From NCBI GenBank assembly GCA_016201275.1, contig JACQDB010000121.1, forward strand, positions 1-64,000: a stretch of 64,000 nt of DNA, written 5' to 3'. Of this stretch, positions 5,538-60,848 are shown in pieces (the first letter of the stretch is position 1; each line of letters begins with the position of its first letter). Source of the DNA: Acidobacteriota bacterium (GTDB lineage: Bacteria; Acidobacteriota; Blastocatellia; UBA7656). The translations under genes and the position numbers were made by a program. Under the pieces are notes generated by a model. The model was not told the DNA's origin and ran no database searches. It saw only the letters and a program-made list of their open reading frames with translations.

Positions 5538-5700
5538 AGATGGTGGATGAAATAACCGGCAAGACTTGCGCGATTTTCTCAAGCCTGGTACGGGCGACCA
5601 CCGCAGGGTCGCCCCTCCTTGAAATGCTTATCCTTTCCAAGGAGGGGCGACCCTGCGGTGGTCGCCCGTACAGGGTTGCACTTGATTTCATCTACCATCC
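5538..5700. repeat. MITE-like element, family A copy 1, with 34-bp perfect inner palindrome
   Basis: Starts 15 bases after the stop of the preceding gene. The left end reads GATGGTGGATGAAAT and the right end is its near-complement, ATTTCATCTACCATCC. Inside, 5588-5621 and 5638-5671 are perfect 34-base inverted arms separated by 16 bases. The same ends recur at 58914-59250 and 60737-60848. No coding capacity. Read as a non-autonomous terminal-inverted-repeat element; the mobilising enzyme is not in the window. Confidence 0.75.
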
Positions 5701-7602: not shown

Positions 7603-8028
7603 ATGCCGAAGATGACCGCTCAAGAAGTTGAAGACTTTATCTTTTCGCACTTTCCTACGGCCAATCAGAAGCGCCATTTTCTTGTCGAAAAACTTGAGGA
7701 GATGAGGGCGCAGGTGCGAATGATTTATCACCAACGGCAACTCCGACCGGGCGGCACCATTTCCGGCCCGGCTTTGATGGCATTGGCCGACACGGCGATG
7801 TGGGTGGTGTTGACGGGAATGATTGGCCCGGTGGCGCACACCGTGACGACCAGTCTGAATATTAATTTTTTGCGAAAGCCGGATAAAAAAGATGTGATTG
7901 CCGAAGTGCGCTTGTTGAAACTGGGCAAACGTCTGGCGGTTGGCGACGTGGTGATGTATTCGGATGGCGAGGCACAGCCGGTGGCGCAGGCCAGCGTAAC
8001 CTATTCGATTCCTCCACACCGCGAATAA
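7603..8028 (+). CDS. PaaI-type hotdog thioesterase
   Basis: A 141-residue protein with a single hotdog domain. The region RPGGTISGPALMALADTAMW matches the active-site helix of PaaI/YdiI-like acyl-CoA thioesterases, where the Asp of ALAD acts in catalysis. The strand NFLRKPDKKDVIAEVRLLKLGK(R) follows. Substrate cannot be read from sequence. It starts 13 bases after trpG and is probably co-transcribed with it, though no biochemical link to tryptophan synthesis is known; the placement may be incidental. Confidence 0.8.
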   Translation: MPKMTAQEVEDFIFSHFPTANQKRHFLVEKLEEMRAQVRMIYHQRQLRPGGTISGPALMALADTAMWVVLTGMIGPVAHTVTTSLNINFLRKPDKKDVIAEVRLLKLGKRLAVGDVVMYSDGEAQPVAQASVTYSIPPHRE

Positions 8029-8116
8029 ACGACGCCTTGATCGCACTGCCTGCAAGTGGAAGGGATCGTGCGCGTAAACTCCCACCTGTAGGCCGCACGA
8101 CAAACGATAAAAAATA

Positions 8117-18862: not shown

Positions 18863-18951
18863 AGAAAAAGAAGTTAGGCGTTCCACTTACAGGCGGAAGC
18901 CTTCGCCTTCTAGCGCTTTCGCCTGTAGGCGAGACTACGAAACACTTTCCT
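18863..18951. repeat. Terminal-inverted-repeat element, family C copy 1 (89 bp)
   Basis: The left end AGAAAAAGAAGTTAGGCGTT...ACAGGCG is mirrored by CGCCTGTAGGCG...ACACTTTCCT on the right, so the element folds on itself. The same end sequence recurs twice at 20254-20498. It lies upstream of the LolA-like gene, in a 400-base gap (18720-19122) otherwise without a gene. Confidence 0.55.
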
Positions 18952-24107: not shown

Positions 24108-24160
24108 AAGCGGAAAGCCTGAACATACGATTGTCATAAGTTCAGGCTTTCCGCTTATCT
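24108..24160 (+). terminator. Intrinsic terminator after the propeller-amidohydrolase gene
   Basis: A perfect 17-base stem, AAGCGGAAAGCCTGAAC (24108-24124) with its complement at 24140-24156, and a 15-base loop, followed by ATCTTTT. It lies 28 bases after the stop. Confidence 0.75.
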
Positions 24161-53472: not shown

Positions 53473-54948
53473 ATGAGAGAGAAATACGAACCTGTTATTG
53501 GCCTTGAAATTCACGCGCAACTCAAGACCGAATCGAAAATTTTTTGCGGTTGTTCGACGCGCTTCGGCGACACTCCCAACGGCAACACTTGCCCGGTCTG
53601 TCTGGGCTTGCCGGGGGCTTTGCCGGTGTTGAATCGCGAGGTCTTGCGAAAAGCTACACGCGCCGCGCTGGCGTTGCATTTGCACATCAATCACGAATCC
53701 ATCTTCTCGCGCAAAAATTATTTTTATCCGGACTTGCCCAAAGGCTATCAAATCTCGCAATACGACCGCCCGTTTTCCGAACACGGCTGGGTCGAGATTC
53801 CCACCTCGGAGCGCAACGCCACCGGGCAGGCCATCGAATGGCGTATGAAACGCTTTGGCATCACCCGCCTGCATCTGGAAGAAGACGCGGGGAAATCGCT
53901 GCACGAAGGAATGGCGGAATCGGCGACGAAATCCTATGTGGATTTGAATCGCAGCGGCACGCCGCTGGCGGAAATTGTCTCGGAGCCGGATTTTCGCTCG
54001 TCGTGGGAGGCTTACGATTATGTGCAGTTTTTGCGTCGCACCTTGCTCTACGTTGAGGTGTGCGATGGCAATTTGGAAGAAGGGAATTTCCGTTGCGATG
54101 CCAACGTCTCTGTGCGTTTGAAGGGCGCGGAAAAATTCGGCACGCGCACCGAGTTGAAGAATTTGAACTCCTTCCGCTTTCTGCAAAAAGCCATCGAATA
54201 CGAAATAGACCGGCAAATCGAAGTCCTCGAAGCCGGTGGCCGAATTACTCAAGAGACGCGCTTGTGGAACGAACGCGAAGCCAAAACCGTGTTGATGCGC
54301 TCGAAAGAAGACGCCCACGATTATCGCTATTTCCCGGAACCGGATTTACCGCCGCTCCTCATCAGCGAAGCTTTTATACAGGCACAACGCGAAGTCATGC
54401 CGGAATTGCCGGAAGCACGGCGTCGCCGCTTTGTGGCAGAGTACGGCTTATCGTTTGACGACGCCGCGCAATTAACCGACAGCAAAGGCCTGGCCGATTA
54501 TTTTGAAGCCGTGGTCAAAGCGAGTGGCAATGCGAAGGCGGCGGCCAATTGGATGCTCAACGAGTTGGTGCGCGAGTTGAATCACTCCGGCAAGTCCATC
54601 AACGACAGTCCGGTCACGGCGGAAGCCTTGGCGGCGATGATCGAGATGATTGACAATCAAACCATCAGTGGCAAGATGGGCAAAGATGTATTGATTGAAA
54701 TGTATCAATCCGGCAAAGCGGCTAAAGAGGTCGTGGAAGCCTTGGGCGGCGCACAGATTTCCGATGTCGAACAGATACGCGCTATGGTTGAACAAGTGGT
54801 GGCCGGTAACGCCAAACAGGTCGAAGCCTATCGCGGCGGCAAGACGACGCTCTTCGGCTTTTTTGTCGGCCAGACGTTGAAAGCCAGCGGCGGCAAAGCC
54901 AACCCACAAATCGTCAATCAAGTTTTGAAAGAGATGCTTGATTCATAA
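53473..54948 (+). CDS. gatB: Aspartyl/glutamyl-tRNA amidotransferase subunit B
   Basis: A 491-residue subunit that converts misacylated Glu-tRNA(Gln) or Asp-tRNA(Asn). EPVIGLEIHAQLKTESKIFC, PNGNTCPVCLGLPGALP with the zinc cysteines, and PDLPKGYQISQYDRP define the catalytic cradle. ELKNLNSFRFLQKAIEYEI and the C-terminal tail/YqeY domain (LKASGGKANPQIVNQVLKEM) are complete. gatA and gatC are not in the window. Confidence 0.97.
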   Translation: MREKYEPVIGLEIHAQLKTESKIFCGCSTRFGDTPNGNTCPVCLGLPGALPVLNREVLRKATRAALALHLHINHESIFSRKNYFYPDLPKGYQISQYDRPFSEHGWVEIPTSERNATGQAIEWRMKRFGITRLHLEEDAGKSLHEGMAESATKSYVDLNRSGTPLAEIVSEPDFRSSWEAYDYVQFLRRTLLYVEVCDGNLEEGNFRCDANVSVRLKGAEKFGTRTELKNLNSFRFLQKAIEYEIDRQIEVLEAGGRITQETRLWNEREAKTVLMRSKEDAHDYRYFPEPDLPPLLISEAFIQAQREVMPELPEARRRRFVAEYGLSFDDAAQLTDSKGLADYFEAVVKASGNAKAAANWMLNELVRELNHSGKSINDSPVTAEALAAMIEMIDNQTISGKMGKDVLIEMYQSGKAAKEVVEALGGAQISDVEQIRAMVEQVVAGNAKQVEAYRGGKTTLFGFFVGQTLKASGGKANPQIVNQVLKEMLDS

Positions 54949-54957
54949 GAGTAAAAA

Positions 54958-55027
54958 TTTCGTCGTCCCGCCGGCAAGCGGCAACGGTCGCGGTTAAAAA
55001 ATTGCGCTTGCCGGCGGGACGACGAAA
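54958..55027. repeat. Hairpin element, copy 1
   Basis: Perfect 23-base inverted arms at 54958-54980 and 55005-55027 (TTTCGTCGTCCCGCCGGC...), separated by 24 bases. The loop side contains CGGTTAAAAAATTGCG, also found in copy 2. It lies just after gatB. Confidence 0.8.
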
Positions 55028-55056
55028 CGCAGGGGTGGATCAATGAGGCTAGAGGT

Positions 55057-55124
55057 GTCGTCGCCCCGCTGGCAGGCAGAAGATGGCGCGGTTAAAAAAT
55101 TGCGCTTGCCAGCGGGGCGACGAC
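55057..55124. repeat. Hairpin element, copy 2, with compensatory changes
   Basis: Arms 55057-55076 and 55105-55124 (GTCGTCGCCCCGCTGGCA...). Compared with copy 1, two base pairs have changed on both arms (T-A to C-G, C-G to T-A) and one has become G-T. The loop-side CGGTTAAAAAATTGCG is unchanged. Confidence 0.8.
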
Positions 55125-55185
55125 TCCCTTGCCTTGCTCACCTCACTGAACCGCTACCCCCAATTTTTTGTCAAAGGAAGATCAT

Positions 55186-55806
55186 TTGAGTACGCTGAAA
55201 ATTTTTGTTGTCGCGTTGGTACTTGGCCTTTTTTTACTTGGCTCCTCGGCCTGTGGAGTTGACCCCGGAAGTGCAGATGAAGTCGCGGTGATTGATACGA
55301 GCTATGGGAAGATCGTGGTGGAATTTTTTCCCAAAGAAGCGCCGCGTAACGTCGCTAATTTCAAACAACTGGCGCGTGAAAATTTTTATGAAGGCACGAA
55401 GTTTCATCGCCTGGTCAGAGACAAAGGACAGTACATAGCGATTCAAGGCGGCGACCCAAATACCATCTCCGGCGACTTGTCCACCTGGGGCAAAGGGCAG
55501 GCCAATCAAAAGACCGTGCCGGCAGAATTCGTCAAAACTTTACAGCACTTTCGCGGTATGGTTTCAATGGCCAGAAGAGGCGATGATATTAATTCCGCCA
55601 CCAGTCAATTTTTTATCTGCACGACGGATTGGCATGAGTGGGATGGCAAGTATTCGATCTTTGCCAGAGTGATTGCCGGTATGAATGTGGTGGATTCCAT
55701 CGCCCGCGCTCCTATGGTGAAAAACTCTGAGTTTCCCGTTGACCCGGTGGTGATCAACAAGGTTACGATTACAAAACGCGATCAGGTACAGGCGCTCATG
55801 GAATAA
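55186..55806 (+). CDS. Lipoprotein peptidyl-prolyl isomerase, cyclophilin type
   Basis: A 206-residue protein; TTG at 55186 with AAGGAAG upstream is chosen. LFLLGSSACG is a lipobox with the Cys near residue 23. The cyclophilin domain follows: YGKIVVEFFPKEAPRNVANF, FHRLVRDKGQYIAIQGGDP, and FRGMVSMARRGDDINSATSQ, then FFICTTDWHEWDGKYSIFAR. It acts in the periplasm on prolyl bonds of exported proteins. Confidence 0.9.
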   Translation: MSTLKIFVVALVLGLFLLGSSACGVDPGSADEVAVIDTSYGKIVVEFFPKEAPRNVANFKQLARENFYEGTKFHRLVRDKGQYIAIQGGDPNTISGDLSTWGKGQANQKTVPAEFVKTLQHFRGMVSMARRGDDINSATSQFFICTTDWHEWDGKYSIFARVIAGMNVVDSIARAPMVKNSEFPVDPVVINKVTITKRDQVQALME

Positions 55807-60736: not shown

Positions 60737-60848
60737 AGGATTGTGGATGAAATCAAGTGCAAGACTTGAGTGATTTTCCAATGCCCTGTACGAGCGACCC
60801 TGCGGTGGTCGCCCGTGCAAGGTTGCACTTTATTTTATCCATAATCCT
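60737..60848. repeat. MITE-like element, family A copy 3 (112 bp)
   Basis: AGGATTGTGGATGAAATCA at the left and TTATTTTATCCATAATCCT at the right. The interior CGACCCTGCGGTGGTCGCCC is shared with copy 1 at 5538-5700. TTA stands next to both ends, a possible short duplication. Confidence 0.7.

Follow-up and report, generated by a model that had tools for sequence, protein, structure and literature searches.

The two hairpins downstream of gatB in this Acidobacteriota genome are, with a probability that we put at about 0.9, REPINs (REP doublets, or BIME units), probably fossil ones that a REP-associated tyrosine transposase (RAYT) would once have spread and that now appear orphaned in their host. 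The REP/REPIN family to which they belong, together with its RAYT clade in the Blastocatellia, constitutes a new family within a known class of elements and not a new RNA. We consider the family orphaned because no close RAYT was found in the host and few copies are canonical. The host genome (G000) is a 6.84-Mb draft assembly that is 98.7% complete, and the window is the whole 64,000-nucleotide stretch of it that was analyzed.

Results

Paired hairpins downstream of gatB

The preliminary description of this DNA reported two adjacent hairpins after gatB whose stems differ by compensatory base changes, and both observations stand. All 23 of 23 arm positions are paired in hairpin 1, which is ~70 nt overall, and 22 of 24 in hairpin 2; the spacers between the stems are 24–26 nt, the copies are 77% identical over 86 nt, and the two hairpins folded jointly reach −107 kcal/mol (z = −10). 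The compensatory changes had been slightly understated, as three pairs rather than two differ on both sides between copy 1 and copy 2 (T-A to G-C, T-A to C-G and C-G to T-A), at stem positions 2, 9 and 15 counted from outside. In copy 2, one A-T has also become the G-T pair described earlier and one outer pair is broken. Coordinates are collected in Table 1.

The loop-side sequence had been described as unchanged and taken to be under selection. The identity is real, but selection on the loop is not supported, since spacers differ elsewhere and the shared spacer GCGGTTAAAAAATTGCG has just two occurrences in the 6.84-Mb genome, both at the gatB pair. A genome-wide search for the 23-nt version of the spacer, allowing up to three mismatches, found none beyond this pair, and the idea of a conserved loop was rejected. 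Copy 2 is probably a local duplication of copy 1. Neither copy retains the canonical foot or loop, GTCG standing in place of the one and GGCA in place of the other, and in the left arm of copy 1 the in-arm stem and loop are degenerate. In the closest relative that shares this gene order (L094, with a gatB that is 74% identical), the gap between gatB and the isomerase gene is about 21 bp, which corresponds to an empty site.

Table 1. Positions in the window of the gatB hairpins, their parts and neighbors, and of two further family copies
Feature	Position	Strand	Remarks
gatB	53473-54948	+	upstream neighbor of the hairpins, co-directional
peptidyl-prolyl cis-trans isomerase-like gene	55168-55806	+	downstream neighbor; named from its own sequence; gene order kept in relatives
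REPIN copy 1 (hairpin 1)	54957-55028 (hairpin 54958-55027)	.	inverted REP arms plus spacer; matched by models R1 and R2
REPIN copy 2 (hairpin 2)	55055-55126 (hairpin about 55054-55127)	.	in tandem with copy 1, 98-bp period
left REP arm, copy 1	54957-54981	+	match to family arm consensus
foot GTCG, left arm, copy 1	54962-54965		followed by TC
stem CCGCC, left arm, copy 1	54968-54972
loop GGCA, left arm, copy 1	54973-54976
AGCGG, left arm, copy 1	54977-54981
right REP arm, copy 1	55004-55028	-	inverted; match to family arm consensus
spacer CGCGGTTAAAAAATTGCGC, copy 1	54989-55007	+	common to the two gatB copies only
same spacer, copy 2	55087-55105	+	identical to copy 1 spacer
mixed-type family copy	18865-18949	.	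R2 71.5 bits; one GTTAGGCGT arm, one GTTTCGTAGT arm
strongly degenerate family copy	8028-8111	.	R2 39.6 bits

A dispersed family of inverted REP doublets

Searching the genome with a covariance model, as had been proposed, yielded many further copies. The model built from the two gatB copies (R1) found dozens of them. A further model (R2), for which 41 copies were used, extended the list to at least 74 distinct dispersed places, a lower bound because scoring covered 150 of the 2829 initial candidates. The unit consists of GTTTCGTMGTYCCGCCTTCAGGCGG (also a GTTTGGMGT variant), a spacer that varies from copy to copy, and the inverted arm, about 70 nt in total. Type A arms have the consensus GTTTCGTMGTYCCGCCTTCAGGCGGAAGC, and type B arms GTTTGGMGTWCCGCCTTCAGGCGGAAGC. 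In a few copies, such as C103:9592 and the window copy C16:18865, a type A and a type B arm share one unit, and a few shortened units of about 44 nt are present in C54, C85 and C127. Four chimeric units (C86:12471, C89:70290, C22:15768 and C69:20315) combine one family arm with one arm of the form CTTCATGCCATTGGCCTTCAGGCGG, which has a different foot and the same stem half.

The layout of the arm is that of a REP: a GTAG-type foot, two bases, a 5-bp stem and, canonically, a TTYA loop. What characterizes REPINs is found here, namely inverted REPs able to form a long hairpin, multiple and mainly extragenic copies and, at the level of the family, a GTAG/GTGG-type tetranucleotide beside a short stem-loop, with GTCG and degenerate in-arm stems in the gatB copies. 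Arms of the family combine a stem with a foot that reads GT(A/C)G or GG(A/C)G. Fifty-one of the 74 places lie outside every called ORF, in co-directional (38), convergent (8) or divergent (5) gene contexts; the other 23 overlap ORFs, many of which are short and probably spurious, as ORF calling was crude. Many R2 matches elsewhere are diverged, and canonical foot, stem and loop are retained in both arms of only 2 of the 74 copies. Arms within one mismatch of the consensus number 25 in the host, compared to 90 in G004, a relative from the same taxonomic family.

Other palindromes were seen in the course of this work. A long palindrome with 34-bp arms, GTACGGGCGACCACCGCAGGGTCGCCCC..., lies at 5588-5671 and 60737-60848 of the window, with similar ones at L239:4653-4736 and L241:3150-3233; as these palindromes recur, the host has a second repeat family. 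Two more long palindromes, of the GCCTGACCGTAAGGGAGGGCTG and GCCCGACCGTGAGGGAGGGCTT types, were noted at L104:1545-1636 and L238:7197-7268, on two different Acidobacteria contigs, and a perfect 17-bp hairpin, AAGCGGAAAGCCTGAAC, which is possibly a bidirectional terminator, lies at 24108-24156 of the window.

Covariation and decay of pairing

The covariation holds as sequences are added. Among the 41 copies, two-sided changes are seen at 17 of the 19 pairs of the stem; none of 500 shuffles reached the observed values, and 90.6% of cells are paired, far above both shuffles and slid controls. Given dozens of additional copies and this covariation, chance is excluded as the source of the hairpin pattern. 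Arms also resemble each other more within than between copies (type A, 0.80 versus 0.73; type B, 0.875 versus 0.79; 0 of 2000 permutations), and for type A this extends to the in-arm loop bases (0.83 versus 0.65). However, one-arm changes outnumber two-arm changes by about 4:1 in the host and some family copies hardly pair at all, which indicates that pairing in the family is decaying rather than strictly maintained.

Selection for pairing at the level of the transcript would be expected to tolerate G-U intermediates but not A-C ones. On the transcribed strand of 30 copies that lie between co-directional genes and were oriented by them, the mismatches comprise 41 G-T and 42 A-C, and since these counts are equal, there is no sign of selection at the RNA level. 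The preliminary description had inferred selection for the paired structure, as RNA or as single-stranded DNA. Of these two carriers, single-stranded DNA is the better; an RNA is not supported.

RAYTs in relatives are flanked by the same repeats

We searched 58 genomes, namely that of the host and those of relatives, most of which belong to the same class, and obtained matches to the covariance model in 24 of the 58. RAYTs were sought with NCBIfam NF047646 and their flanks inspected. (The first Y1_Tnp loci retrieved from relatives were mostly IS200-like and were not flanked by the family, and the link came through NF047646.) In G004, a RAYT of 199 aa at L215:1887-2486 scores 81.4 bits against NF047646 (cut-off 80); its best PDB match is 4er8, deposited as TnpArep (phmmer E 7e-5), with which its HUH motif (HYH) and tyrosine motif align. 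Doublets of GTTTCGTAGTNCCGCCTTCAGGCGGAA border this gene to the left (GTTTCGTAGTCCCGCCTTCAGGCGGAATC...GATTCCGCCTGAAGGCGGGACTACGAAAC) as well as to the right (GTTTCGTAGTACCGCCTTCAGGCGGAA...TTCCGCCTGAAGGCGGTACTACGAAAC), and they represent the host's type A consensus. The RAYT of G046 has type B flanks (GTTTGGAGTTCCGCCTTCAGGCGG, the GTTTGGAGT variant), and that of G052 is flanked by GTTCGTAGTTCCGCCTTTAGGCGG.

Close homologs of the G004-clade RAYT (E below 1e-68) are encoded in 16 of the 58 genomes. Family repeats are present in 15 of these 16 and in 9 of the 42 genomes without the clade (Fisher p = 5.7e-7, uncorrected for phylogeny, with genomes that are not phylogenetically independent). RAYTs of the clade in 15 genomes are bordered, on one side or both, by REPs in which the foot invariably ends in AGT and the loop is TT(T/C)A. 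We compared 19 RAYT-flanking REPs, selected by hand from the flanks and trimmed to 25 nt. All 95 of 95 stem cells are paired, and two-sided changes occur at all five pairs, giving at least nine stem forms (CCGCC, CCGAC, CCGGC, CCAAC, CAAGC, CAACC, ACGCC, CACGC, CCAGC and others), and the first two bases of the foot are variable. Direct tandem single REPs, GGAGTTCCGCCTTCAGGCGG, with a 26-bp period, were also seen in G013 at C7:112585-112760 and C29:80391-80488.

Thus, the suggestion that the hairpins are REP-like elements is confirmed by the dispersed copies, the REP layout and the RAYT link in relatives. As for the RAYT that the preliminary description proposed looking for, RAYTs exist, with the cognate ones in relatives (the same repeats flank RAYTs in G004, G046, G052 and others) and not in the host. 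The search for a close homolog of the clade RAYT in the host found none, the best match having an E value of 0.09, although a RAYT could have been missed in a draft assembly. The sole host RAYT above the NF047646 cut-off, C93:36475-36930, adjoins a different REP, GTTGAGAGGCGGTCTCCGACCGCC. Eight Y1_Tnp matches in the host (one gene twice) were considered as a local source and rejected, as the family is absent within about 1.5 kb of them.

Several other loci in the host resemble REP systems. To one side of the C93:36475-36930 RAYT (L186, L238, L255), GTTGAGAGGCGGTCTCCGACCGCCG is repeated in tandem, with a related palindrome at L239:1363-1415, and this gene and its repeats are a candidate separate REP/RAYT pair. 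A doublet at L238:1645-1711 (host C93), GTTCAGAGGTACGCCTTTAGGCGTGA, is much like the REP beside the RAYT of G024 (L309), a resemblance from which we conclude that a remnant of a further member of this REP clade is present in the host. At C89:101919-104703, a Y1 transposase-like gene lies next to a REP-like pair, CTAGCCCGCGAAGGCGGGCGATAG (L057:2163-2227).

Discussion

How would such hairpins have arisen? By analogy with other bacteria, a RAYT, which is an HUH/tyrosine nuclease, would copy the repeats as single-stranded hairpins, reading foot, stem and loop, and the repeats of the host, whose cognate RAYT lies in relatives, would once have been mobilized in this way. The gatB pair would derive from one insertion after gatB followed by tandem duplication, and is now probably an inert fossil. 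Its compensatory changes may have been inherited from differing source copies that were constrained to remain paired as entire palindromes and not as an RNA, with arm-to-arm template switching at replication possibly helping to keep the arms paired.

Template switching could also have done more than help. If replication copied one arm onto the other, the paired changes would be mutational in origin; the elements would still be REPINs, and their covariation would be uninformative about function. We regard this as possible, if less than probable. Template switching has been reported both to create and to maintain perfect hairpins (PMC8794818), G-T and A-C intermediates are equal in number, and the covariation extends to in-arm loop bases that have no need to pair within the REP. 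Against it, most two-arm changes affect a single base and they show no clustering beyond chance, albeit in small numbers, and RAYT-adjoining REPs covary in the stem while foot and loop remain fixed, which points to recognition.

The remaining explanations are much less likely. A structured RNA of the gatB operon under selection in the transcript, such as a 3′ UTR stabilizer, a protein-binding site or a noncoding RNA, might be expected from very stable hairpins between co-directional genes, and the authors of a survey of GTAG-tagged REPs see many REPs as transcribed RNA elements, based on placement and G-T pairs (PMC3733652). We nevertheless consider it very unlikely: G-T is not in excess of A-C on the transcribed strand, the whole window is without an Rfam match at the gathering score, the gatB insertion is lineage-specific, and the copies are dispersed in unrelated contexts and associated with RAYTs. 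The same lack of an Rfam match and of a G-T excess leaves the RNA-binding site or noncoding RNA family of the preliminary description without support. That the hairpins are intrinsic terminators, as strong G+C-rich hairpins directly past a stop codon could be, is the least credible account, since neither stem is followed by a T run on the + strand, a scan for terminators and promoters found none, and 23-bp stems with 24–26-nt spacers are untypical. Hardly better is a MITE of a DDE transposase, that is, a miniature transposon bounded by terminal inverted repeats. Although the inverted arms are long and the copies dispersed, each arm is in itself a REP, having a foot and a loop; such REPs lie on the flanks of Y1 (HUH) transposases, and direct tandem singlets occur in G013.

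Orphaned REPINs, our preferred explanation, have close parallels. The REPINs of Pseudomonas fluorescens SBW25, described in 2011, measure about 71 bp, and compensatory changes are frequent in them; likewise, the family described here consists of intergenic, RAYT-linked inverted REP doublets with a spacer, about 70 bp in length, that form a long hairpin and carry compensatory changes (PMC3116915). Unlike SBW25, the host lacks a cognate RAYT, its copies are strongly diverged and the sequence family is another. The family also resembles the GTAG-tagged REP superfamily, whose members are short GTAG-tagged palindromes in inverted dimers downstream of genes, with the same placement bias by orientation of neighboring genes as the host copies (PMC3733652). 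The hosts in that survey are Proteobacteria, Cyanobacteria, Chloroflexi and PVC, Acidobacteria not being among them; the acidobacterial transposases it mentions lie between long terminal inverted repeats that are unrelated, and it allows that a host REPtron may be missing through deletion, such that a cognate RAYT is usual but not universal (PMC3733652). With E. coli REP/BIME and TnpAREP (4er8), the Blastocatellia system shares REP doublets and a RAYT of the same protein family, although E. coli REPs have bulged stems and the Blastocatellia ones short, perfect stems. A literature search on RAYTs, REPs and Acidobacteria led to the GTAG survey and a transposase phylogeny, and no description of the Blastocatellia family was found in the papers searched.

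The most informative comparison is with Marinomonas REPtron Mb, a group 3 TnpAREP whose REP, studied in vitro, consists of GTAG, two bases, a perfect 5-bp stem and a TTTA loop, of which positions 1, 2 and 4 (T, T, A) are essential for cleavage and the third is free (PMC8266576). The Blastocatellia RAYT-flanking REPs share this layout, with TT(T/C)A loops in which only position 3 varies. All 19 that we compared are Mb-like in this sense, a likeness of REP layout. They differ from Mb in an extended foot (GTTYNKAGT or GTTTCGTAGT) with the tetranucleotide GTAG, GGAG or AGAG, and their RAYTs are about 200 aa. By extension from the Marinomonas results, the gatB copies, with their GTCG feet and GGCA loops, would be poor substrates.

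It is conceivable, if doubtful, that the arms evolve in concert over their full length, inner loop bases included, in a genome without a cognate RAYT. Were this true, either template switching keeps the arms paired or an unrelated Y1 transposase mobilizes the repeats in trans, and REPIN covariation can persist without selection by a RAYT. In any case, strong stem covariation among repeats does not necessarily indicate a functional RNA.

Our findings add a Blastocatellia REP/REPIN family with its own RAYT clade to those known. Judged from the repeats beside them, the RAYTs of this clade appear to read the fixed AGT foot end and the TTYA loop, leaving the stem free provided that it is paired, in agreement with the in vitro data on one Marinomonas enzyme. 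Natural variation among these repeats makes RAYT recognition testable.
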